From an uncultured Bacteroidales bacterium (GTDB lineage Bacteria > Bacteroidota > Bacteroidia > Bacteroidales > Bacteroidaceae), in assembly GCA_902791295.1 (NCBI GenBank), contig CADAVI010000005.1, positions 1 to 43,776 on the forward strand: a stretch of DNA of 43,776 nucleotides, in the 5' to 3' direction. Within the stretch, counting starts at the first letter, position 1. Every line of letters begins with the position of its first letter. The notes beneath the pieces are model-generated. The model ran no database searches. It was given only the letters and a program-made list of their open reading frames with translations, and was not told the DNA's origin. This document shows, in pieces, positions 19,438 through 35,288 of the stretch. A program made the position numbers and the translations under genes.

Positions 19438-19854
19438 TTAAAAACCCATTTTTTTCTTCCAGTCAGCAAAAAAGAACGGTTCTTCCAACATTTGTTCACC
19501 TTTTTGGTCAATGAAAAGTTGAATAGTGGAACCCTCCAAACAGAGAGCGCCGTCCCGTTCTCTGAAAATCTGATAACGGTAATCCAAACGGGCACCACGT
19601 CTCGGCACATAAGTCGTATGAATAACAGCAACATCATTCATCTCCAATGGGGCCAGACAACGATACTTCACCTCATAAACCGGTGCAGTAATTCCTGTTT
19701 CCATCATCACAGTATAGTCACATCCCGGATAATGACGGCCAAAACTCTCTCTACCGTCTTCCATATACTTGACATAATTACCATGCCAAACCCGGCACAT
19801 TGGGTCCAGTTCTGAGAATTTTACCGGGATGCGACAAATATCAACTATTTCCAC
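19438..19854 (-). CDS. Hotdog-fold acyl thioesterase (4-hydroxybenzoyl-CoA thioesterase/YbgC type)
   Basis: 138-residue hotdog enzyme predicted to hydrolyse an acyl-CoA or acyl-ACP thioester. SELDPMCRVWHGNYVKYMED near residue 14 holds the family aspartate followed by the HGNYVKYME helix. Last gene of the polyene-like cluster, where a thioesterase of this kind is expected. No ATG fits; translation probably starts at GTG 19854, which overlaps the LolA-like stop at 19845 by ten bases. Confidence 0.85.
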   Translation of the reverse strand: MEIVDICRIPVKFSELDPMCRVWHGNYVKYMEDGRESFGRHYPGCDYTVMMETGITAPVYEVKYRCLAPLEMNDVAVIHTTYVPRRGARLDYRYQIFRERDGALCLEGSTIQLFIDQKGEQMLEEPFFFADWKKKMGF

Positions 19855-20420
19855 TGAAAATCAGAGAATGTGTATAACGTATAATTTTGCCCCTTTTCAT
19901 TCATACGCAGTGACTTCACCTCTCCATTCTTTCCATTGATTACCAACATAAAAGAAGAGAACATCATACGTTTGGCAGCCTTACCTTCCACCTTTGGGGT
20001 TATGGTAATAACAATATCTGCTCCATCCTTTTTCATTTCGAGGTCGCTTATCTTAGAAAGGTCGGTGCCACCGTTCAATATACTCTCCCACACTGCCTGA
20101 AACGTCTTAAATTGCGGATTTTTCTTAGAGGATGTCTTGTACGGCTTGCCTTTCATCGTCATAGTAAACGAAGTTCCCTGCATATCCAAGGCATCTTTAC
20201 CGCCATCCATCGTGATATTAACTTTATCAGGACTTACCATTTGAAATGTGCCGTAAAGAATCTCGTCCTGAGCAACAACCGTACGATGACGCACCCGTTG
20301 ACACTTGGCAGTTACAGATTGTACTTTTTTATATTTGGCACAGGCTTTTTGAAACTCAGCCTGTTGTGCGAAAACTCCCAGCACCGAAAAACAGCACAGG
20401 GCAAGCAATAACTTTCTCAT
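19845..20420 (-). CDS. LolA-like periplasmic lipoprotein carrier
   Basis: 191-residue exported protein. Signal peptide MRKLLLALCCFSVLGVFAQ, then a LolA/LppX-like beta-sheet fold (SVTAKCQRVRHRTVVAQDEI, YGTFQMVSPDKVNITMDGGK, SLRMNEKGQNYTLYTFSDFQ). Its position inside a lipid cluster beside an MMPL exporter suggests it carries the cluster product across the periplasm, not general lipoproteins. LolA homologues occur in aryl-polyene and flexirubin clusters in the same role. The stop overlaps the thioesterase start. Confidence 0.82.
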   Translation of the reverse strand: MRKLLLALCCFSVLGVFAQQAEFQKACAKYKKVQSVTAKCQRVRHRTVVAQDEILYGTFQMVSPDKVNITMDGGKDALDMQGTSFTMTMKGKPYKTSSKKNPQFKTFQAVWESILNGGTDLSKISDLEMKKDGADIVITITPKVEGKAAKRMMFSSFMLVINGKNGEVKSLRMNEKGQNYTLYTFSDFQWK

Positions 20421-20432
20421 AATAATTTCATT

Positions 20433-21161
20433 TTAAGTGTACAAACCACCATTTATACTTACAACATTTCCTGTTACATAAGAAGCCCCTTCGGAAGCGA
20501 GGAAAGCAACAACCTCCGCCACTTCTTCCGGACGTCCGAAACGACCTGCAGGAATTGTTTTCTTAAGGGTCGCCTCATCCAAGCCATCCACCATATCCGT
20601 CTTGATAAAACCGGGGGCGATGGCATTTACTGTCACATTCTTCTTTGCAACTTCCTGAGCCAAGGCCTTGGTAGCTGCGATGATTCCGCCTTTTGCCGCA
20701 GAATAATTGGTTTGACCGGGCAAGCCTTTAATACCGCTTACCGATGCCATGTTGATGATTCTTCCAAACTTATGGAACTGCATCGGAGCCAAAAGAGGTT
20801 GTGTTACATTATAAAAGCCATCCAAGGTAATCGTAAGCACACGGTTCCAATCTTCCCGAGGCATTAAAGCCATAACATTGTCACGACGGATACCGGCATT
20901 ATTGAAGAGCACCTCAATGTATTCATCCTCATGTGCAGCCTGCCACTCTTCAATCGCCTTACGCGAAGCCACAGCATCAGAAACGTCAAATTTCATCAAA
21001 GTTCCGTCGCTGCCTGCCTCTCTCACCAGACGAAGAGTCTCTTCAGCCGCTTCGGTGTTGCCGGCATAATTAATCAAAACATGATAGCCTAAAGAAGCCA
21101 TCTTTACGGAAACGGCACGCCCTATACCACGACTGCCACCTGTTATCAATGCATACTTCAT
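20433..21161 (-). CDS. 3-oxoacyl-ACP reductase (FabG-like SDR)
   Basis: 242-residue short-chain dehydrogenase that reduces beta-ketoacyl-ACP with NADPH. Cofactor motif TGGSRGIGRAV near residue 7, NNAGIRRDNVM, catalytic serine in INMASVSGIKGLPGQTNYSA and the YSAAKGG motif (Tyr, Lys), and the end ASYVTGNVVSINGGLYT. Inside the cluster it should supply the ketoreduction step for each elongation cycle. Probably not the housekeeping FabG, given its neighbours. Confidence 0.9.
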   Translation of the reverse strand: MKYALITGGSRGIGRAVSVKMASLGYHVLINYAGNTEAAEETLRLVREAGSDGTLMKFDVSDAVASRKAIEEWQAAHEDEYIEVLFNNAGIRRDNVMALMPREDWNRVLTITLDGFYNVTQPLLAPMQFHKFGRIINMASVSGIKGLPGQTNYSAAKGGIIAATKALAQEVAKKNVTVNAIAPGFIKTDMVDGLDEATLKKTIPAGRFGRPEEVAEVVAFLASEGASYVTGNVVSINGGLYT

Positions 21162-21184
21162 TATTTCTAATTATTAATTAAGTC

Positions 21185-22597
21185 TTATTTAAAATTCAAC
21201 ACTTGTTGACAGGTATATTTCGATGTTTTAGCCACTCCCATCAGACCGTGAAGCACCAGGTTTTGACCTGTTAAGAACAAATTACTGATTGGAGTTGTCG
21301 GCGACAAAATGGTCATCAACGGATTCCGCCAGTCTTTGCGCATTCCATAGGCACTGCCACACGGCGTCTGATTGTAATCACGCCAAGTAAGAGGAGATGA
21401 AGTGTAAATGCATTCTACACACTCTCTCAAATGAGGCAGTTCACATTCTGCCAACAACATACATTCTTCGGCTATCTGTTGCTTTAAAAGCTTATAATCC
21501 TCCCCTCTATGTCCTACAGAGGTCTCTGACCATCGTTGCCACATATCGAAACTTGTAGGAGTCAAAATGTCAATTTGGTCTGCAGCCGGATTCGTTACCA
21601 ATATAGCAGTCACGGGCCGGGAAGGATTTTCATGTTGAGACCACACGTCAGGCAGTGAGTAAATATACTTGTTATGATTGAAGGAAGAAATACTGCCATG
21701 CTTCAAAACCAAAGACGCCGTGAACATACCAAACGAATTCTCCACAGAAAAAATGCGTCTGCGAAATACGTTCTTTATTTTCCGGCTGTTCGTTAACCAC
21801 GAAAGCGTGACAGCAGGATGCGTATCGGAAATAAAACATTTACCCTCGTATAAGCTGCCGGAAACGGTGCGAGCAGCCACTATCCTGTCATCTTTCTCCA
21901 AAAGTTCCGTCACTTCCTCACCACAGAACACCTCACCACCAGCACTCTTGATGTCATGACAAAGTCTGTCAACAATCAACGACCCCGGACCGTCAAGTCT
22001 CCAACTGCTCTCTATAAAGGGGCCTTGATTATGCATAAAAGAAAACTGCGGCAAGGATTCTTTTCTCAATTCCATTTTGAGACAGGTCGCCGAAAGCACG
22101 TCTATGAGTAGCGAATCATTGAACAGCTGATGCAACCAGTCCCACGCAGAAACATCTGTCCCGTCCTTTTCTCCCATATCCCGCAAAGCATGGACATAAG
22201 TCTGTAAAGACTCCCTTTCGGAAGGGAATGATTTAGCCAATTCCTGTGCAAACCTATCATAACCCTCTTTATAGAGAAATGTACGTTCGCCAATGGTCAC
22301 TCTGTCGAAGCCTTCCGGATCCAAACGCTTCCATGGAAGTGACAACAGGTTCAGTTCTGCAAATAATTCATGAAGTGCCTGACCTTCATCCAAACCGCCG
22401 ACGTAATGCATTCCGGTGTCAAAACGGCGTCCTCTCCGTGTGTAGCTTTGCAATGAGCCGCCGGGCTGAATCTGCCGTTCCAGAACGGCAACTTTCAGTC
22501 CACGCTTAGAAAGCATCTGACCACAGGCCAATCCTCCCAATCCACTACCTATGATGATGACGTCGTACACTGTGAAAAATTGCCGGTTGAACCACAT
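21185..22597 (-). CDS. FAD-dependent oxidoreductase, phytoene desaturase (CrtI)-like
   Basis: 470 residues. Dinucleotide-binding motif GSGLGGLACGQMLSKRG from residue 17, then LERQIQPGGSLQSYTRRGRR and FDTGMHYVGG, all typical of the CrtI/CrtISO and retinol-saturase branch of amine-oxidase-like flavoproteins. The C-terminal FAD site reads PISNLFLTGQNLVLHGLMG. It may desaturate, isomerise or saturate double bonds of a polyene chain. ATG 22597 overlaps the MMPL gene by 53 bases; a GTG at residue 10 (22570, VYDVIIIGSG) would reduce this and fits the family start better. The substrate is unknown. Confidence 0.85.
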   Translation of the reverse strand: MWFNRQFFTVYDVIIIGSGLGGLACGQMLSKRGLKVAVLERQIQPGGSLQSYTRRGRRFDTGMHYVGGLDEGQALHELFAELNLLSLPWKRLDPEGFDRVTIGERTFLYKEGYDRFAQELAKSFPSERESLQTYVHALRDMGEKDGTDVSAWDWLHQLFNDSLLIDVLSATCLKMELRKESLPQFSFMHNQGPFIESSWRLDGPGSLIVDRLCHDIKSAGGEVFCGEEVTELLEKDDRIVAARTVSGSLYEGKCFISDTHPAVTLSWLTNSRKIKNVFRRRIFSVENSFGMFTASLVLKHGSISSFNHNKYIYSLPDVWSQHENPSRPVTAILVTNPAADQIDILTPTSFDMWQRWSETSVGHRGEDYKLLKQQIAEECMLLAECELPHLRECVECIYTSSPLTWRDYNQTPCGSAYGMRKDWRNPLMTILSPTTPISNLFLTGQNLVLHGLMGVAKTSKYTCQQVLNFK

Positions 22598-25019
22598 AAC
22601 TCAACACCACTGCACTCACCATACCAACGAGTGTTGCGAAGCCTACACTTTGGATGGCGGGATGTTTGGCAAACAACATGGAGGCTACTGTCACCACCAA
22701 AATGAATGCCGAAAAGATGATGGCCGTTTTATGACGTTCCAAAACTTTCTTGTTTCCTTCGTCCTCATGAATCAAACCGGACATCACAAAAATGCTGTAG
22801 TCAACTCCTATGCCGAAGATGAATGTGGAGATGATGATGTTGATCAGATTAAAACGCACGTCAAAAATGGCCATCGCACCGAGCACGATGAGCCAGGACA
22901 GCAAAATCGGGAAAAAGCCCAACAGGGTGTGCTTCCAATTGAAATGGAAACTCAGCAGCAATACGGCAAATACAAATGCCATACTGATCCACTGCAACAC
23001 ATTGAAATCTTCATTAAGTTGTCTCAACGTATCGCGCGTATAATAATAGGTATCCAGCACCATCAGTTCCGGCTCCTTCGTAACGGCATCACAAATCCTC
23101 AGGAAATTTGCATCCAAACTGTCCGGTTGATAACGCACGCTGGAGAGGACAAGATACTGATGACCGTAAGTTTCCTCTATCAAAGTGGAAAGATATCCAT
23201 AAGGGATAATTCCGGCTTCATATAATGCGTCCGCTTCGTAATCACGTGTCGCAGCATCGAAAAAGGCGTCAAATCCCTCGGGCGAAAGACCGGCCTTAGG
23301 CGCTGTAGATGCAATCAATGATCTGACTTTCTGCAAACGTTCCTGCGTCCAGAAATCCTTCCACGCCTGAATACGCAGTTCCTGCTCCTTGAGGGGGACA
23401 AAAAGGACATTGGTACGCGTATAGTCTTTCACGATCCCCGCCTTCTCCAATGAATCAAGTTTCGCATCCAGCAAAGCAAAGTTCTCTACGGCCTCTTCTG
23501 CAGTCTTTCCTTCTGAAGCAAAATACGTAGACTCGTCACCTGTTGCCGTCTTTTCCCTCAATAAAGCGCTGCTTTCCGATGTCATTGCAGAAACGTAACT
23601 CAAATTGTTCATATCTGCATCGAAAGTCGTCCCCTTGATGAAATAAGCAATCACACAGACCAAAGAAACGGTGGCAATCACTCCCGTCAGCCATTTGCTC
23701 TTCTCAAAAGGATAAGCACTTAACTTATCCATTATGGCAAAAGCTCTCTCCCCTTTACGGCTCTTGCCGATATCCAACATGTGAGGTAAATAAATCAGAG
23801 AAAACACCGTGGTCCCAACAATGGCAAAGGCGGCAAAAAGGCCAAAATCCTGCAACAGATCCGTTTTAACAAAGAGGAGGCCGATAAAACTGCCAATAGT
23901 GGTGACGCAGCCAAGCAAGACGGGCTTCGTTTCTTCTCTGAGCACCATTTCGCTGTTGCCCGTGTACTTATAATGTGTAATGACATGAAGAGCATAACTC
24001 ATGGCGACACCAAGTACAATGGCACCGATACCCAAAGCCATCAACGAGAATTGACCTTTGATAAAATACATCAACGTAAGCCCAAAGAACGTACCGAAAG
24101 CCACAGGCAACACCAACAACGGCAATGAGGACCACGTGCGCAAGCACAAGCCTAAAACAATGAGAACCAAAATTAGCGAACCGAGTATGGTCGTCAGCAA
24201 ATCTTTCTTAATCGTGGAAGAATTATAATATCCGTTTGCGGGTGTTCCATGATAAAGAATTCTCACTTCGGGATGAAGCGTTTTAAACTTTTCGATGTTA
24301 TTGTTAAGAGTCTCAAACAAGGCACTTCCCTGCCCTGTATTGGTAGCGGAGAATTTCGGCGTGATAATGGCCACGCATACGCTGGAATCCGGCACGAACA
24401 AATGACCCTCTATCGTCTTGTACCCCCCTCCGCTCGCACCCATCAAGGGAGCCAATTTTTTCTCCAAGACAGAACGCATGCCTATCGGATCCATTTCCAA
24501 AAGCTGAGGGAAGATGTCTGCTATTTCACTTTGCATATCCTCAGCATTCCGAGCCATTTGCCGCTCCATATGCTCTTGTGTCAACAACGTGTCAAAAGCA
24601 GCATAGTACGAGGTGTCAATGTAAGAAGGCAGATGTTCCGTGAGATAATCAACGGCGTCGTACATCAAATCTTCATCGATTCGATAGAATACATCGCTGA
24701 TGGTTCTTTCTTCTTCGGGCAAATGAGCCTGAGGGGCAATAAGAGTGTCCACGAACTCATCGCAAGCCGCAATCATGTCTTCCACATCATCTCCTTGAAA
24801 GAGAACAAAAGTTTTATCTTTGATACGCAACGATGAGAATGCCAACTTGATACTCCCGTCTTCATTGCGTGACGAGGGCATCAATTTATTCAGGTCTTCT
24901 TCAAGATAAATCTCCGAAGAGAAATAACCTAAAAACAAAAACAAAAAGACCATCGACAGCCACATGAGGGGGCGATGGTTTTTAAAAAACAAATAGAGGT
25001 TGACAAATAACCGTGTCAC
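22545..25019 (-). CDS. MMPL/RND-type lipid exporter
   Basis: 824-residue inner-membrane transporter. One N-terminal helix, a large periplasmic domain (about 40-265), helices 2-6 (about 270-430), a second periplasmic domain (about 460-650) and helices 8-12 to the end. This two-fold RND layout has MMPL features such as FGIGVDYSIFVMSGLIHEDE near 735. It likely flips or exports the lipid made by the surrounding genes to the LolA-like carrier. The start is GTG at 25019, overlapping the upstream dehydratase stop by four bases (GTGA). Confidence 0.88.
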   Translation of the reverse strand: MTRLFVNLYLFFKNHRPLMWLSMVFLFLFLGYFSSEIYLEEDLNKLMPSSRNEDGSIKLAFSSLRIKDKTFVLFQGDDVEDMIAACDEFVDTLIAPQAHLPEEERTISDVFYRIDEDLMYDAVDYLTEHLPSYIDTSYYAAFDTLLTQEHMERQMARNAEDMQSEIADIFPQLLEMDPIGMRSVLEKKLAPLMGASGGGYKTIEGHLFVPDSSVCVAIITPKFSATNTGQGSALFETLNNNIEKFKTLHPEVRILYHGTPANGYYNSSTIKKDLLTTILGSLILVLIVLGLCLRTWSSLPLLVLPVAFGTFFGLTLMYFIKGQFSLMALGIGAIVLGVAMSYALHVITHYKYTGNSEMVLREETKPVLLGCVTTIGSFIGLLFVKTDLLQDFGLFAAFAIVGTTVFSLIYLPHMLDIGKSRKGERAFAIMDKLSAYPFEKSKWLTGVIATVSLVCVIAYFIKGTTFDADMNNLSYVSAMTSESSALLREKTATGDESTYFASEGKTAEEAVENFALLDAKLDSLEKAGIVKDYTRTNVLFVPLKEQELRIQAWKDFWTQERLQKVRSLIASTAPKAGLSPEGFDAFFDAATRDYEADALYEAGIIPYGYLSTLIEETYGHQYLVLSSVRYQPDSLDANFLRICDAVTKEPELMVLDTYYYTRDTLRQLNEDFNVLQWISMAFVFAVLLLSFHFNWKHTLLGFFPILLSWLIVLGAMAIFDVRFNLINIIISTFIFGIGVDYSIFVMSGLIHEDEGNKKVLERHKTAIIFSAFILVVTVASMLFAKHPAIQSVGFATLVGMVSAVVLSYVVQPAIFHSVRRHHHR

Positions 25020-25384
25020 ACTAATACTCCTTTCAATTCCATATAAATTTGAGCCCCGTCACTTATCTGTCCCTGAACTGTGTAACCGCCGTCCTTGGGC
25101 TCTGTCTTAATCTCCACAATGACTTCCGGACAAACTGCCGGTGTAGCCACAGCCGTCAGGCGGCATAATTTGATACTGTCGTATCTTAAATCATCTCTAT
25201 TGAGAATCTTACAGGCACACTCCTTAATGGTCTCCATATTACACACTCCGGGACAGACGGGTTTGCCTGGAAAGTGACCTTCATAAACCCTACAATCAGG
25301 CAAAAGAGCCAAAGAAACAACGCCCTGCCCTTCTTCTGTCTGTTTTACGGAAATAATCCTATAAAAATTATTGTTCAGGAACAT
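25016..25384 (-). CDS. FabZ/FabA-like hotdog 3-hydroxyacyl-ACP dehydratase
   Basis: 122-residue hotdog enzyme that should dehydrate 3-hydroxyacyl-ACP to the trans-2-enoyl form. The motif EGHFPGKPVCPGVCNMETIK (from residue 35) carries the catalytic pair His37 and Glu51. It is shorter than housekeeping FabZ (about 145). It pairs with the other hotdog gene directly upstream, with which it overlaps by 17 bases. Confidence 0.85.
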   Translation of the reverse strand: MFLNNNFYRIISVKQTEEGQGVVSLALLPDCRVYEGHFPGKPVCPGVCNMETIKECACKILNRDDLRYDSIKLCRLTAVATPAVCPEVIVEIKTEPKDGGYTVQGQISDGAQIYMELKGVLV

Positions 25385-25787
25385 AAATCTTCATTTGAGT
25401 GTCTGCAACTACCTCCGCGCCGACTTTCGTCTCGCCCCTCATCAGAGTGACGCCCTGTACCTCAGGGCCCATTGACACCGTAGTCTCTAACATATCCCCA
25501 ACCTTCGGGCGACGATACAAATGGAAATTCTTTACTTCGCCAATATATCCTATAGGGGCTTCTGTCGCACCGGACTCCCGAGACTTCCAACCGGCATGGG
25601 CGGAAGCACTCTGAGCAATATGCTCAATTAACGCTACCTCAGAAAGCCTGCCGTCGGATTCGATGAAGAAGTTGCCTTCCTTGACGGTGTATCGGCAAAC
25701 CGCTTCATCTTCCGAGGCGCTAACCAACGTGTCCACCATTTGAATAGGGGCACGCTGAGGAATCAAGTCTTCAATAGAATAAGACAT
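25368..25787 (-). CDS. Hotdog dehydratase-like protein resembling ApeP of aryl-polyene clusters
   Basis: 139 residues. LIPQRAPIQMVDTLV near residue 8 aligns with the HRxPxLLVD start of FabZ-like proteins, but the usual histidine is glutamine here. The helix region ESDGRLSEVALIEHIAQSAS followed by AHAGWKSRESG matches the pattern I associate with ApeP. It may work as a partner subunit of the smaller FabZ-like protein. Start: ATG 25787, after the ACP stop, in preference to an in-frame TTG at 25811 inside the ACP gene. Confidence 0.78.
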   Translation of the reverse strand: MSYSIEDLIPQRAPIQMVDTLVSASEDEAVCRYTVKEGNFFIESDGRLSEVALIEHIAQSASAHAGWKSRESGATEAPIGYIGEVKNFHLYRRPKVGDMLETTVSMGPEVQGVTLMRGETKVGAEVVADTQMKIYVPEQ

Positions 25788-25794
25788 TCCCTGT

Positions 25795-26034
25795 TTACTG
25801 ATGAGACTCAATATAGTCGTAGAGATCCTTAAAGGTCTTCACTTTGGGAAGGTCTTCTACGGGAATCTTAACCTTAAAGGTGTACTGAATTACAGCGACG
25901 AGGTCAACCAAAGAGAGGCTGTCCAACTGAAGGGTGTCATAAATCACTGCATCATCAGTGATCACGGTTTCTTCAACTTCAAACTCCTCAGCAAGAGTAG
26001 ACTTAACTTTTGCAATGATGTCTTCGCGAGTCAT
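25795..26034 (-). CDS. Acyl carrier protein of the polyene-like cluster
   Basis: 79-residue acidic four-helix carrier protein. The phosphopantetheine site is Ser39 in LQLDSLSLVDLVAVI. It begins MTREDIIAKVKSTLAEEFEV. It lies between the ketosynthase and the dehydratases, so it is dedicated to this cluster and not the housekeeping AcpP. It follows the ketosynthase by 46 bases. Confidence 0.93.
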   Translation of the reverse strand: MTREDIIAKVKSTLAEEFEVEETVITDDAVIYDTLQLDSLSLVDLVAVIQYTFKVKIPVEDLPKVKTFKDLYDYIESHQ

Positions 26035-26080
26035 AATAATTTAAATTTAAGTTGTTTATAATTTTTATTTTTGTATTATT

Positions 26081-27301
26081 TCAAACATTCTTGACAATCA
26101 GAGTCGAATTAGTGCCGCCAAAGCCGAAACTGTTGGAAAGGAACATATCAAAATGCTGCTCTATCGTCTGCGGGATTACATTGACACATGCGGTTTCCTC
26201 ATCAGGCTCCTCAAAATTCAGGTTTCCGGCAATAAATCCGTTCTTCATCATGAGCATAGAATAGATGCACTCTGCAGCACCGGCAGCCCACATTTCATGT
26301 CCGGTCTGCGACTTCGTACTCGTCACGGGCACCTTGTAGTCGCCGAAAGCCTGGGCAATAGCCATAGCCTCACGACCGTCTCCGGCGTGTGTAGAGGTGG
26401 CATGTGCATTCACATAGCCGATTTCACGGGGGGGCACTCCCGAGAGACGCAACGCCATCTCCAAACTCTTTCTGGGACCCTCCACATTGGGGGTGGAGAT
26501 ATGATCACCGTTACCGCTGAATCCCCAACCGACGATTTCTGCCAGGATTTTTGCACCGCGCTTTTTGGCGTGTTCCTCACTCTCAAGAATCAGCGTTGCG
26601 GCACCGCCGCCGGGAACCAGGCCGTTACGATTCTTATCAAAAGGACGGCAGGCTTTCAAAGGATTGTCCTCTGTGGTAGAGAAAGCCTGTATGCCATCAA
26701 AAGAGGCGACACAATACATATTGTTTTCCTGACCGCCGCCACAAATCACACAATCCTGCAAACCGTTTTTAATCAGCAGGTATGCGTTACCAATAGCGAT
26801 GGACGAAGAGGCACAGGCAGCCGATGATGTCAGGTTGATGCCACGCAGCTTGAACAGACAGGCCAGATTCATGGTGATTGTCGAGTTCATCGACTGGAAA
26901 ATAGCACCACTGCCACAGCTGGCCGTATCACCGCATTCACGGAACTTGTCCAAAGCCACCATTGTTGCCTCTGCCACACTGTCATTGCCATAAATGATGC
27001 CGACATCATGCTTATCCAGATAATCCTGATCTATGCCGGCCTGCTCCAAAGCATCCTTTGTTGCCATATAGGCATACTGAGCCTCCTCCGGCATAAACAT
27101 TCGCATGTTGCGGGGAACAAAAGGTTTAAGATCCGGTTTGGGCACATTAGTACAAAGTCCGCTGCGGAAACCCGCAGCTTTTCTCTCCTCCGAAAAGATT
27201 ATTCCGCTCTTGCCGTCATAGAGACTTTTGCACACATCATCCAAAGTCTGGCCCAAACATGACCAGATTCCCATACCTGTGATAACTACTTTATTTTCCA
27301 T
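26081..27301 (-). CDS. Beta-ketoacyl-ACP synthase (FabF-like) of the polyene-like cluster
   Basis: 406-residue condensing enzyme. The catalytic triad is intact: Cys163 in SSAACASSSIAIG, His300 in NAHATST and His335 in TKSQTGHEMWAAG, with Lys330. The end SNSFGFGGTNSTLIVKN is family-typical. Only this one ketosynthase is encoded here; aryl-polyene clusters usually also have a chain-length partner. It is the second gene of the unit, 35 bases after the YghO-like gene, with no clear promoter of its own. Confidence 0.93.
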   Translation of the reverse strand: MENKVVITGMGIWSCLGQTLDDVCKSLYDGKSGIIFSEERKAAGFRSGLCTNVPKPDLKPFVPRNMRMFMPEEAQYAYMATKDALEQAGIDQDYLDKHDVGIIYGNDSVAEATMVALDKFRECGDTASCGSGAIFQSMNSTITMNLACLFKLRGINLTSSAACASSSIAIGNAYLLIKNGLQDCVICGGGQENNMYCVASFDGIQAFSTTEDNPLKACRPFDKNRNGLVPGGGAATLILESEEHAKKRGAKILAEIVGWGFSGNGDHISTPNVEGPRKSLEMALRLSGVPPREIGYVNAHATSTHAGDGREAMAIAQAFGDYKVPVTSTKSQTGHEMWAAGAAECIYSMLMMKNGFIAGNLNFEEPDEETACVNVIPQTIEQHFDMFLSNSFGFGGTNSTLIVKNV

Positions 27302-27336
27302 TTCTCTATTGTTTCAACTTTAAATCGAGTTTCGGT

Positions 27337-28479
27337 TTATTTTCTTGCTTCTATCTTCTTTATCCAACAACGGCGTCTCTTGATAACCTCGGGATTCATA
27401 GGCTTCCATTGGGAAAGCTCTTTGACATTGTCCTCCAATTGGGGGCCTGTCTCTGCAAAGCGGAACCCCTTTCTATTGAGAACTGGAATGAGGTCATTGA
27501 ATATAAGCGCATTCACGCCCATGCCCTGAAGGTCAGGCCTTACAGCAATCAAAAGCAACTGAATCGTCTCCTCATGCTTCCATTTGAGCGCCTGCATGAT
27601 ATGCCACCAGCCTAAAGGCAACAGATGGCCCTGTACCTTCTTCAGCGTCTTCGAGAGCGACGGCACAGTCACTGCAGCTGCCACAATCTCTCCCGTCTCA
27701 TTCACCACACAAGGCACCAGGTCGGTGTCTAAAATGGGGACATATTGCTTCAGGAAATCATTAATCTGATCATCTGTCAAAGCCGAGAAACCGAACAGAG
27801 GTTCATAGCATTTGTTCATGAGACGCAAGGCCTCACGCCCCTTTTCCCCCATCAATTGAGAGCGTCCGAATTTCACCACCTTCAGGCCGAACATTTCTGC
27901 AGAAAGGGCCGATACACGAGCATACTTTGCAGGAACTTCTGCGGGCACCTTTACCCGAATCTGCAACCAGTCTGCCTCTTTTTTGAAACCCAAGGCTTCC
28001 ATATGCTTCGGGTAATAGGGGTAGTTGTAGATTTCTATCATTGAGCCTTCTCTCTCAAAGTCTTCCATCAGCATACCCTCTTTGTCGAAGTCCGTAATCC
28101 CCAGAGGGCCCTGAATTCGCTCCATTCCCTGCTCTGCGCCCCACTCTTCCACAGCCTTGATTAACGCAGCTGACACCTCCGGGTCGTCCACAAAATCAAC
28201 AAAGCCGAAGCGAACATTCCTGGTGTTCCATTTCCGGTTGGCTACAGGATTAACGATGCCGGCTATACGGCCGACTACGTCTTCACCCCTCCAAGCCAAA
28301 AAAGGTTGTACTTTAACAAAACGAAGTGCACTGTTCTTCTTCGAATTAAAAGTGTCGTACACAATACTGTTCAATTCAGGAACGAACTGCTCGCACCCCT
28401 GATAAAGAGCGAACGGGAAACGAACGAAAGCCGTCATCTCCTCATTATTCATCACTTTCTTTACATGTATTGTACCCAT
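27337..28479 (-). CDS. YghO-like GNAT-fold protein
   Basis: 380-residue protein of the YghO family (GNAT-like acyl or acetyltransferase fold, function unknown). Support: FVRFPFALYQGCEQFVPEL near residue 20, FLAWRGEDVVGRIAGIVN, GFVDFVDDPEVSAALIKAVE, a C-terminal GNAT part with LLLIAVRPDLQGMGVNALIF, and FAETGPQLEDNV. Start: ATG 28479, placed 18 bases after the promoter box at 28498-28505; the longer frame to 28530 would run through that box. First gene of the transcript that continues into the ketosynthase. It may transfer an acyl group in the lipid pathway. Confidence 0.8.
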   Translation of the reverse strand: MGTIHVKKVMNNEEMTAFVRFPFALYQGCEQFVPELNSIVYDTFNSKKNSALRFVKVQPFLAWRGEDVVGRIAGIVNPVANRKWNTRNVRFGFVDFVDDPEVSAALIKAVEEWGAEQGMERIQGPLGITDFDKEGMLMEDFEREGSMIEIYNYPYYPKHMEALGFKKEADWLQIRVKVPAEVPAKYARVSALSAEMFGLKVVKFGRSQLMGEKGREALRLMNKCYEPLFGFSALTDDQINDFLKQYVPILDTDLVPCVVNETGEIVAAAVTVPSLSKTLKKVQGHLLPLGWWHIMQALKWKHEETIQLLLIAVRPDLQGMGVNALIFNDLIPVLNRKGFRFAETGPQLEDNVKELSQWKPMNPEVIKRRRCWIKKIEARK

Positions 28480-28497
28480 ACACACACTTTTCGTGCA

Positions 28498-28505
28498 CAA
28501 AGGTA
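28498..28505 (-). promoter_or_regulatory. -7 promoter box (TACCTTTG) of the YghO/polyene-like cluster
   Basis: Matches TAnnTTTG on the minus strand. A TTTG lies 22 bases upstream, slightly longer than the usual 19-21. It sits between the PlsC-type gene stop and ATG 28479 and probably serves the whole cluster to 19438. Confidence 0.65.
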
Positions 28506-28526
28506 TGAAAAAAAAAGGACTTAAAA

Positions 28527-29828
28527 TCAAATTTCGTTAAAAAAAAGCAATTGCGATGCAATTTTGTCCCTCACATCCTTGACTTCAGACATTTCCGATT
28601 TGTGTGCAAGAATGAAATATTGCCCCCTTAACTTTTTCAATCTTTGCCACATCCACCAGGCAAAACGTGCTTGCAATTCCCACAATGCAATCCACACCAA
28701 ACCCAGCCACCAAACGCCCAAAGCCGCCGTCACTCCGACAGAAACAATTGCTGCTATTGGCACTAAGACAAGACTGTTGAGCAACACTCTGTAGGTGTTT
28801 GTATACATCAGATTCTCGCCCAGCAAAAGCGTTGGCATCCAATAGAATAAAGCATGCGGCCATAAACAGAGAATCCACAATGGAAGAAAGAGCAGAAGTA
28901 TCAGGCCGTCGACACACCATTGCCCCCACCCCGTTTTCTCTGCAACCCATTGATCCTTCAGAGAATAAGTTCGCTCCAAATTCCTAAGCCTTAACACATC
29001 TTCATAGAAACCGCCATCTCCGTGTTCCTGAAGCAGACGCACAAACTGTTTGTCTTTTTCCAGGCGCTTGGGCAAAGGCAAACGACCACCGGCAAAACTG
29101 TCGCCGAATGCACCCGTTCTCAAGAAATCAATGGCATCATAATGCTCCCGATCCTCTACATGGAGCATCATGTCGAGCACCTTATTCCGCAGCAGTTCAT
29201 TGATTTCCCTCACCGTTGTTCTGGGTTTACTCCGGTAGCGTTCATAATAAGGCCTCAAAGAAACCGGTTCTCCGACACGTATCATAAATTCCGTCTGCAC
29301 ATCGAAATAATCACTGTAATGATTTGCAGAAGGAATTACCTTGATATCACGCTTCCAGCCTTCCGATTCGGCCGCCTGAAAAGCCAAATGCAGATAATTC
29401 GGAATAAAACGTCCGAGATAGCGCCCGAACTGACCGGTACCCTCCGGATAAATAATCAACGGACATCCCAACAAAAGACGGCGTTCCATCTCCTCCTGAG
29501 AGTTGAGATTCTTAGTGACGTTTTCCAGTCCCTCGTAATCTGCACGATAAGCAGGAAGCATACCTAAACCGTAAAAAAAACTCTTCAACAAAGGCAACTT
29601 CCCCAGAAACACTCCGCTGGTTGATATTGTCGGGAATTGCCGATTCTTGAACATCAAAATCAACCCCAAAGCATCATTGGCATTATTCTGATGATTACTT
29701 ACAATAATCAAAGGGTCATCGCCGTCCGGAATGTTTTCTTTACCAAGAATGTATATATGCCTGTAAAGCAGATGGTTATTCAGCAATTTAAAATATGCCT
29801 TGAAAAGCCTGTATGCCCTGCCGCCCAT
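28527..29828 (-). CDS. PlsC/GPAT-type membrane acyltransferase
   Basis: 433 residues. The N-terminal acyltransferase domain has the catalytic VSNHQNNANDALG motif near residue 44 (His and Asp) and IIYPEGTGQFGRY near 130. The C-terminal third holds about three membrane helices (WCVDGLILLLFLPLWILCLW, YRVLLNSLVLVPIAAIVSVG). It is longer than a simple lysophosphatidate acyltransferase and resembles glycerol-3-phosphate acyltransferase-like LPLATs. It follows the GlsB-like gene by four bases, so it may add the ester-linked acyl chain in glycine or other amino-acid lipid synthesis (the GlsA role), or act in phospholipid synthesis. Confidence 0.82.
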   Translation of the reverse strand: MGGRAYRLFKAYFKLLNNHLLYRHIYILGKENIPDGDDPLIIVSNHQNNANDALGLILMFKNRQFPTISTSGVFLGKLPLLKSFFYGLGMLPAYRADYEGLENVTKNLNSQEEMERRLLLGCPLIIYPEGTGQFGRYLGRFIPNYLHLAFQAAESEGWKRDIKVIPSANHYSDYFDVQTEFMIRVGEPVSLRPYYERYRSKPRTTVREINELLRNKVLDMMLHVEDREHYDAIDFLRTGAFGDSFAGGRLPLPKRLEKDKQFVRLLQEHGDGGFYEDVLRLRNLERTYSLKDQWVAEKTGWGQWCVDGLILLLFLPLWILCLWPHALFYWMPTLLLGENLMYTNTYRVLLNSLVLVPIAAIVSVGVTAALGVWWLGLVWIALWELQARFAWWMWQRLKKLRGQYFILAHKSEMSEVKDVRDKIASQLLFFNEI

Positions 29829-29832
29829 AATA

Positions 29833-30747
29833 TCATACGCTCATATGGCGTGCTTTCTTTTCTTCGCACATCTCATCTACGGCAATCAGGATTGCGCTTT
29901 CCACCGCACCGGCAAAGGTTTCGTCAACCGTACTGCCAAAATATTGCATCGTCGGGGTGAGCATCATGTAAGAATTTATCATTGGAGGAATCCGCTCTCC
30001 CAATTCTTTCATTTCATGCTTTAGAAGCCGATATCCGTTCTCAAAATCCTTATCCCCGAACAAGGCAGCAAACTCATCCTCCGAGAATTGTTTTTCAAGC
30101 GGCTTGTAGGGTGTGATAAGAGGCTTTTTTGCCGGGAAATAATGCTTCATAAAATACAGCATCAGTTCTCTGGCACGACGATTGAAAGAGGCCGGTATTG
30201 TCACCTTGCCGAAAAGATATTTCAGCTCAGGATGCTGCACCAGATACGCGCCGATACCGTCCCACAGATTGTCCATGATGTAGATACTTTTCCCTCTGGG
30301 AGCATTACGCTGATATCCGGTGGTCACGTAACTGCGTCCCACCTCCACGGTGCAGTCTTTGAAATCTTTAAGAAATTCTTCCGAAAAATGAAAAAGATGG
30401 CTCGTTGCCAGGTCCGGCTGTCCATTCTTTGTCATAGGCCAACGACTTCCTTCTATCATGCGATAGCCGCCGGCAATTTCTTCGCTGTCCGGGCTCCACA
30501 CCAACATTTGCAGACAATTCCTATCGAACGGCGTCACGTCGAGCTCCAATCCGGTTCCTGTGCCACCCCGACGGAATGCGTCCTCTCTGACACGACCGAT
30601 TTCCCTCATAAGGTTGGGAGCCTCATCGGCACGAATCAAATACACCTCGTTATCTCCACGATTGGTGCGACGCAAAAGACGCTCCGGCGTAAGCTCCTTT
30701 TTAAGCTCACTTACATCAACAGGCGCTATAATAGGCTTCATAGACAT
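29833..30747 (-). CDS. glsB: OlsB/GlsB-type N-acyltransferase (amino-acid lipid synthesis)
   Basis: 304-residue GNAT-fold enzyme of the OlsB/hemolysin-like group. In Bacteroides thetaiotaomicron the homologue GlsB transfers a 3-hydroxyacyl chain from ACP to glycine. Support: LMREIGRVREDAFRRGGTG near 58, TPFDRNCLQMLVWSPDSEEI, AGGYRMIEGS, VEVGRSYVTTGYQRNAP and YLFGKVTIPASF. Start: ATG 30747 (MSMKPIIAP), 21 bases from the promoter box at 30769; an in-frame extension to 30807 would cross the promoter. The amino-acid acceptor is inferred from the family. Confidence 0.8.
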   Translation of the reverse strand: MSMKPIIAPVDVSELKKELTPERLLRRTNRGDNEVYLIRADEAPNLMREIGRVREDAFRRGGTGTGLELDVTPFDRNCLQMLVWSPDSEEIAGGYRMIEGSRWPMTKNGQPDLATSHLFHFSEEFLKDFKDCTVEVGRSYVTTGYQRNAPRGKSIYIMDNLWDGIGAYLVQHPELKYLFGKVTIPASFNRRARELMLYFMKHYFPAKKPLITPYKPLEKQFSEDEFAALFGDKDFENGYRLLKHEMKELGERIPPMINSYMMLTPTMQYFGSTVDETFAGAVESAILIAVDEMCEEKKARHMSV

Positions 30748-30768
30748 ACCATTGTCGCAAATCGGCGG

Positions 30769-30776
30769 CAAAGTTA
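30769..30776 (-). promoter_or_regulatory. -7 promoter box (TAACTTTG) of the glsB-like/acyltransferase pair
   Basis: Matches TAnnTTTG on the minus strand, 21 bases before ATG 30747, in the short gap after the thiamine pyrophosphokinase gene. Confidence 0.6.
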
Positions 30777-30828
30777 CTACTTTTTCGCGAAATACGACCC
30801 CACACACCCAGAAAAAAATACTCTTATC

Positions 30829-34442: not shown

Positions 34443-35288
34443 ATGGAAAATCAACAGAAAATAGACGTCGACGAACTCCTCCGCACCAAAGTTCCCGACC
34501 ATTACAACAAGATTCCGCGCTGGCTCATCCGCTTTGTCGAATGGCTCATATGCCAAAAGGACATGAACACCATTCTCACGGCTCTGCACGGACGCGAGGG
34601 TGTGGATTTCGCCAAAGGCATGACAGAACAGCTTCAGGTGTCGTTTGACGTAAAGGGACTCGATGACATCGACTTCTCCAAGCGATATCTCTTTGTATCC
34701 AACCACCCTCTCGGCGCTTTTGACGGCATCTGCTACATTCGCGTCCTGGGAGAGAAGTGCAGGAAGCTGAAAGTCATCGTCAACGACATGCTGATGCACA
34801 TACGGCCGCTGCGCCCCGTCTTCCTGCCTGTCAACACCGTCGGACGACAAAAGCGCGAAGATATGGCCGCCGTGCAGGATGCCTATCTTTCCTCCGACAC
34901 TCAGTTGATGACATTTCCTGCCGGTCTGTGCTCCCGCTATATTGACGGACGCGTGCAGGATGTTGAGTGGCACAAGAGTGTCATCACACAAGCCGTCGCC
35001 TCCAAGCGCGACATCGTGCCCATGTATTTTGACGGGCGCAACAGCGTCTTCTTCTACGCCCTGGAAAGGGTGAGACGTTTCATCGGCATCAAGTTCAACA
35101 TCGGACTCGTCCTGCTGCCCCGACAGATGATGCGCACATCGCGCGGCAAGCACTACCACATCATTGTCGGGCGCCCCATCCCCTACTCCGATTTCGACAA
35201 CTCACGTTCGCCGAAGGAGTGGGCTGCATGGCTGCGGGAGCGCTGCTACGCGTTGCCTAAAGAGAGAGAATCTGCAGGGCGTCAATAA
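34443..35288 (+). CDS. PlsC-type acyltransferase (hemolysin/GlsA-like)
   Basis: 281-residue lysophospholipid-acyltransferase-like enzyme. Catalytic motif [14 protein letters not shown] near residue 86 (His and Asp), then [31 protein letters not shown] in place of the usual PEGTRS block, and [12 protein letters not shown]. The NHPLGxxDG form is the one I associate with the PlsC partner of OlsB/GlsB in amino-acid lipid synthesis, so this gene competes with 28527-29828 for the GlsA role. Single gene with its own promoter, divergent from the thiamine operon. Its 3' end overlaps the convergent pfkA gene by 32 bases. Confidence 0.82.

Follow-up and report, generated by a model that had tools for sequence, protein, structure and literature searches.

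Which product is made by a gene cluster that has the elongation and export genes of an aryl-polyene pathway and none for an aromatic starter? The question is raised by a gene run in the window, by which we mean the whole stretch analysed (43,776 nt; contig CADAVI010000005.1 of assembly GCA_902791295.1, from an uncultured Bacteroidales bacterium). As delimited by open frames and family models, the run consists of 12 same-strand genes (minus strand, 30807–19438) in the 5′ to 3′ order GlsB paralogue, PlsC, YghO-like tandem GNAT, ketosynthase (KS), acyl carrier protein (ACP), two hotdog proteins (HD1 and HD2), MMPL, CrtI-like, FlxB-type ketoreductase, LolA and thioesterase, with intergenic gaps of −53 to +46 nt. 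The initial annotation had described ten of these, at 19438–28505, as lying close together or overlapping in one direction. All ten are present, on the minus strand, but the outer boundary proved too narrow, as the run starts 2.3 kb upstream of 28505 with two additional acyltransferase genes, those for PlsC and the GlsB paralogue. The cluster is genuine: it is conserved, related to aryl-polyene clusters, and has a GlsB paralogue particular to its lineage. We give about an even chance to its being a reduced aryl-polyene-type cluster of the ApeR-like KS branch, which would use its own ACP to build an acyl chain that is non-aromatic and polyenoyl (or partly reduced), attach it to a lipid and export it to the outer membrane. 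The features of the run are as follows.

30769–30776, minus strand: TAACTTTG, TAnnTTTG box just before the GlsB-paralogue start, likely promoter −7 element of the run
29833–30807, minus strand: GlsB paralogue, amino-acid N-acyltransferase type, likely start at 30747 (NF053696, 378.6 bits; cut-off 300)
28527–29828, minus strand: PlsC-family acyltransferase of the cluster type, not GlsA (PF01553)
27337–28530, minus strand: YghO-like tandem GNAT, likely start Met18 at 28479 (fold search)
26081–27301, minus strand: ApeR/FabB-type KS (PF00109, PF02801; ApeR, 276.6 bits)
25795–26034, minus strand: dedicated ACP, ApeF-like (PF00550; ApeF, 51.0 bits)
25368–25811, minus strand: HD1, putative hotdog half-dehydratase, ApeP-like, Glu half (ApeP, 33.1 bits)
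25016–25384, minus strand: HD2, putative hotdog half-dehydratase, ApeI-like, His half (ApeI, 26.5 bits)
22545–25019, minus strand: MMPL exporter, ApeM-like (PF03176; ApeM, 96.2 bits)
21185–22597, minus strand: CrtI-like flavoprotein (CrtD, CRTISO and CrtI models all below cut-off)
20433–21161, minus strand: FlxB-type ketoreductase (NF053542, 390 bits; cut-off 340)
19845–20420, minus strand: LolA-like periplasmic carrier (ApeL, 35.0 bits; no Pfam match)
19438–19854, minus strand: hotdog thioesterase, ApeK-like (PF13279; ApeK, 82.4 bits)

The TAnnTTTG box, which we take to be the Bacteroides −7 consensus, occurs at the same place in all five loci inspected (the window and loci L037–L040 in our numbering).

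When profiles of the cluster families were run against the 18 aryl-polyene (ape) products of Escherichia coli CFT073 (apeA–R), eight run products had their best match in ApeR, ApeF, ApeP, ApeI, ApeM, ApeQ, ApeL and ApeK, which bears out the earlier description of an aryl-polyene-type elongation and export set. None had its best match in ApeO, ApeC, ApeH, ApeE, ApeB or ApeJ; relative to CFT073 the run lacks counterparts of these and of ApeN, ApeG and ApeA, and has extra YghO-like, CrtI-like and GlsB-like genes, whose families found no match among the 18 products. The KS profile scored 276.6 bits with ApeR versus 123.0 with ApeO, and the ACP profile 51.0 bits with ApeF versus 7.6 with ApeE; the ketoreductase profile reached 269.4 bits with ApeQ, and that of PlsC gave a weak 10.1 bits with ApeD. 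With the flexirubin (flx) cluster of Chitinophaga pinensis, as far as the available text of its report goes (PMC3992019), the run shares FlxB, above the curated cut-off, as well as KS, dehydratase, thioesterase, LolA and exporter types, but it lacks the tyrosine ammonia-lyase FlxA, the ligase FlxY and the methyltransferase, and has one KS where the flx cluster has five. The LolA-like protein scored below the cut-off of the flexirubin LolA2 model (42.1 bits; cut-off 125), as did the KS with the DarB model (18.9 bits; cut-off 550). Neither an FlxJ methyltransferase (one is encoded on contig C22 of the same assembly) nor a radical SAM match was found among the twelve run genes. The candidate ladderane clusters of Kuenenia, in the accessible part of PMC4790861, resemble the run in bringing together an ACP, an FabF-type KS, an FabZ-type dehydratase and a CrtI-like flavoprotein (two of their CrtI-like proteins were tested and did not make lycopene), whereas the run has MMPL, LolA and thioesterase genes and no radical SAM gene. 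As the initial annotation noted, no aromatic-starter, chain-length-factor, DarB-like or glycosyltransferase genes are seen in the run. Because chain-length-factor and aryl-starter features were looked for and not found, the run is not classed as a member of the aryl-polyene/flexirubin group, whose elongation and export set it resembles. No description of this operon was found in the literature searched, as judged from titles and the beginnings of abstracts.

The KS, single in the run, matches ApeR best and ApeC not at all. Its triad C163, H300 and H335 is invariant in an alignment of seven sequences, and the protein is FabB-like, the term also applied to ApeR in the available text of PMC8358021, where ApeR is reported to yield in vitro shorter polyenes, of at most four double bonds, and to stack the aryl group on Tyr135. 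Mapping via E. coli ApeR put Ile134 of the window KS at the position of Tyr135 and Leu117 at that of Phe118, and Ile occupies the Tyr135 position in all eight window-type KS rows aligned. In a tree of 102 KS rows, the 81 window-type KSs and one row identical to that of locus L082 formed one clade (100/99); among 18 rows labelled as another type, 14 formed its sister group, one was basal on the window-type side and two branched earlier. Judged from its sequence, the KS is of the FabB/ApeR type, not of the ApeO–ApeC type, and is predicted to be without an ApeR-like aromatic clamp.

HD1 and HD2, in turn, look like the two halves of one dehydratase site, because FabZ-type active sites combine a His and an acidic residue and here the Glu is invariant in one protein and the His in the other. 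The Glu was present in 68 of 68 HD1 sequences, with no conserved His ahead of it, and the His in 58 of 58 HD2 sequences, whose Glu position held 37 Glu, 19 Gln, one Leu and one Gly. Searched against the PDB, HD1 had 6qsr_B as its sole match and HD2 had 17 matches, including 6qsr_A; we take 6QSR to be the ApeI:ApeP complex.

We then compared 88 loci chosen by their MMPL gene, namely 80 named loci (the best 80 of at least 315 found) and eight others. At a cut of 60 bits, with profiles built from these same loci, the KS was counted in 83, the ACP in 84, CrtI in 82, LolA in 74, HD1 in 71, HD2 in 61, YghO in 57, the thioesterase in 55 and the reductase in 49, the last number including two genes on the opposite strand, an unlike one in L114 and a copy in L082; many loci end at contig ends, so that absences are soft. 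Gene order was the same or nearly so across many loci and, since the core order is kept, the genes are not a scattered housekeeping set, an outcome that the initial annotation had left to such a comparison. By title, the named loci come mostly from Prevotellaceae, Bacteroidaceae and unplaced Bacteroidales; gut or rumen samples yielded many of them, and the strains represented include Segatella baroniae B14, Bacteroides sp. GM023, Caecibacteroides pullorum, Prevotella sp. AGR2160 and Phocaeicola intestinalis. Among 198 genomes of the order, 51 had an MMPL match at E 1e-20, and in 11 the match had at least 35% identity over nearly the full length. The cluster KS was found in eight of the 11, the window's own genome included (in the window or the stretch around the match; in genome G018 the KS and MMPL genes are separated), and the remaining three (G120, G001 and G003) had the MMPL gene alone. 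A window-type MMPL gene with no cluster KS nearby was seen in loci L018, L019, L020 and L116.

Taken as a pathway, the run suggests the following steps. The KS would extend a fatty acyl starter with malonyl units, and the FlxB-type reductase and two-protein dehydratase would leave conjugated double bonds, because the run is without an enoyl reductase. The CrtI-like flavoprotein may isomerize, desaturate or saturate the chain, which PlsC and the YghO-like GNAT could transfer to an O- or N-acceptor, and MMPL and LolA would take the product through the envelope. For the window's lineage, an acyl-amino-acid acceptor may come from the GlsB paralogue. An extension of this scheme, improbable in our estimate, is a polyene-tailed amino-acid lipid specific to that lineage, in which the GlsB paralogue would form an N-acyl glycine-type core, to which PlsC would ester-link a non-aromatic polyenoyl chain supplied by the dedicated ApeR-type synthase; the CrtI-like enzyme would tailor the polyene, and MMPL and LolA would place the lipid in the outer membrane.

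The foremost alternative, which we hold to be unlikely, is that the run is the auxiliary half of a flexirubin-family pathway, an aryl polyene being started elsewhere in the genome and the window cluster giving a shared ketoreductase, tailoring and export. The search for starter genes envisaged in the initial annotation gave a mixed outcome. Ammonia-lyase (PF00221) was not found in the window's own genome (assembly 85% complete, 145 contigs) by a search that, as a control, was positive in five of 14 genomes. Of 11 AMP-binding matches in this genome none lies on the window's contig, which is without an ApeH-type ligase, and no cluster families were found around the AMP-ligases on contigs C92, C19 and C40. 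Nine open reading frames scanned in three classical-type loci of the same order included ligases in two loci, glycosyltransferases in two and an ammonia-lyase in none, so that the missing ammonia-lyase says little and is not special to this cluster. Further KS matches did turn up, in a second locus spread over contigs C22 and C116 (95-base overlap).

L006 1–4331 and L007 3–2569 (contigs C116, C22): pieces of the flexirubin-family locus

This locus encodes a head KS, an FlxJ-family methyltransferase fused to an ACP domain (563.6 bits, just above the cut-off of 560, on C22), a lipid-acyltransferase-like protein, an ApeP-like dehydratase, a thioesterase, a second KS, an ApeE-like ACP and a partial KS. 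No FlxB was seen beside its head KS, and the only FlxB found in the genome is the window copy. The search for FlxB covered 69 of the 88 genomes (all eight others and 61 of the 80 named ones), all of them cluster-bearing, and succeeded in 68 (65 with one copy, three with two); the gene lies on another contig in 30 of the 31 named genomes without FlxB at the locus, the exception being that of L084. A dispensable reductase, as loci without the gene seem to suggest, was rejected on this ground. Other flexirubin-type genes accompany 14 of the 30 off-locus FlxB genes. In a first set of neighbourhoods they were present in seven of eight; in a second set of 22, some in short stretches, seven were clearly flexirubin-type, three had an adjoining ACP or KS and 12 had no cluster family above a weak score. 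The window reductase probably also serves the flexirubin-family locus, the two loci sharing one reductase. Against a purely auxiliary role, however, the run has its own KS, ACP, dehydratases, MMPL and LolA, its KS falls in a separate clade, 13 of the 30 off-locus FlxB genes are without other cluster families nearby, and genome G135 has the cluster and no second MMPL match at E 1e-20. The second MMPL gene of the window's own genome lies on contig C128, which does not overlap C116. The second locus, which the initial annotation had named as a refutation, is one only in part, given the ammonia-lyase search without a find, the separate KS clades of the two loci and the cluster of G135.

Next in probability, and likewise unlikely, is that the cluster makes no polyene but a special fatty acyl chain, 3-hydroxylated or saturated, from which the GlsB paralogue and the YghO-like GNAT would build an N-acyl amino-acid lipid. 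The initial annotation had named a non-aromatic polyene and a hydroxy-fatty lipid side by side; we favour the non-aromatic polyenoyl chain and keep the other as a rival. A KS, an ACP and a reductase would be enough for a 3-hydroxyacyl chain, the dehydratases are not at the locus in some relatives, and the run begins with a GlsB-type gene, GlsB being the enzyme that makes N-acyl glycine lipids (PMC12746155, available text). The GlsB paralogue, however, is found in just five of the 88 loci, all from the window's lineage; HD1 and HD2 are far more frequent (71 and 61 loci) with invariant catalytic-type residues, and the CrtI-like enzyme is not needed for 3-hydroxyacyl chains. Nor is the upstream pair the glycine-lipid gls pair. 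Its first gene exceeds the GlsB cut-off, but the adjoining PlsC has no significant GlsA match, and true GlsA and GlsB are encoded elsewhere: canonical GlsB on contig C16 (497.1 bits), where it has no adjacent GlsA, and GlsA at 34443–35288 of the window (plus strand; 308 bits, cut-off 260), the gls pair being split in this genome. The six best PlsC relatives in the 198 genomes scored 222–265 bits, the next 125, and four of the six lie directly before a cluster KS.

That ordinary fatty-acid synthesis genes came together by chance is very improbable, for although the KS, ACP, reductase and hotdog proteins are related to Fab enzymes, a separate FabF lies next to an ACP on contig C69 and the order is held over many genomes, with the exporter, LolA and CrtI-like genes.

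Returning to the non-aromatic polyenoyl lipid that we favour, several points weigh against it. Its chain and acceptor are deduced from a cluster known here through its genes, and the likeness of two products to MMPL and LolA is the single indication of an outer-membrane destination. The assembly, moreover, is incomplete (85%). The KS of the genome's flexirubin-family locus is also aliphatic at the Tyr135 position, so that a missing aromatic clamp has little diagnostic value; ApeR itself works on aryl chains, and an E. coli apeR deletion still produced aryl-polyene lipid, according to the accessible text of PMC8253772. HD1, HD2, the reductase and the thioesterase are not at the locus in some relatives, that is, the polyene module is not always co-encoded, and the dehydratases of relatives without them at the locus were located only in part. 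The FlxB link, finally, was drawn from cluster-bearing genomes, without a cluster-free control set.

The cluster amounts to a pared-down branch of the widespread aryl-polyene pathway, in which an ApeR relative stands alone with its own ACP, a two-protein dehydratase, an exporter and swapped acyltransferases. Should the favoured reading hold, what the ApeR branch produces on its own could be tested in anaerobes of gut and rumen, some of them in culture, and polyene chemistry would be joined to an enzyme type for N-acyl amino-acid lipids, products of which are reported to be active on immune cells (PMC12746155, as far as its available text goes). The polyene-tailed amino-acid lipid, if true, would fuse glycine-lipid and aryl-polyene chemistry in an anaerobe.

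The YghO-like protein was placed among tandem GNATs by fold search, which does not fix its acceptor, and phmmer gave no match to it in the PDB. A ceramide-synthase role considered for YghO was rejected, as it is not backed by any sequence test in the literature seen. The idea that YghO is unique in the genome was likewise dropped, a second copy being present in genome G000 and in all five cultured relatives. This second gene adjoins a conserved gene of ~640 residues, presumably ParE-like, in all six genomes inspected (L130 9029–10183, minus strand; L129, L131–L134). In Prevotella bryantii B14, by its name probably the strain of locus L052, a YghO-like protein rose more than five-fold under monensin (PMC8508442, available text). 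The B14 genome holds two YghO copies, and the monensin-raised protein may be either the cluster copy (L052 6460–7632, plus strand) or the other.

Besides these genes, a DUF5686/CarboxypepD_reg protein of ~855 residues is encoded beside the cluster in 32 of the 80 named loci (L046, L048, L060, L083 and others), between the CrtI-like gene and the reductase in L048, L060 and L083; the window's run has none. By phmmer against the PDB it was matched in its N-terminal domain only, and it may be an outer-membrane partner. Following the DUF5686 gene, a CDP-alcohol phosphatidyltransferase, a class I/II aminotransferase and an LPG_synthase_TM protein are encoded in L046, L047, L049, L053, L057, L058, L059 and L066, and may hint at the head group. 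The window's run is flanked upstream by thiamine pyrophosphokinase and PnuC-type genes and downstream, 102 nt away, by the gene for ribosomal protein L28. In L041 (114–7694), TonB-receptor, PnuC and thiamine pyrophosphokinase genes, as in the flanks of the window's run, lie inverted between the MMPL and CrtI-like genes. The G+C content of the run (19438–30807) is 46.0%, versus 51.6% for the remaining window.

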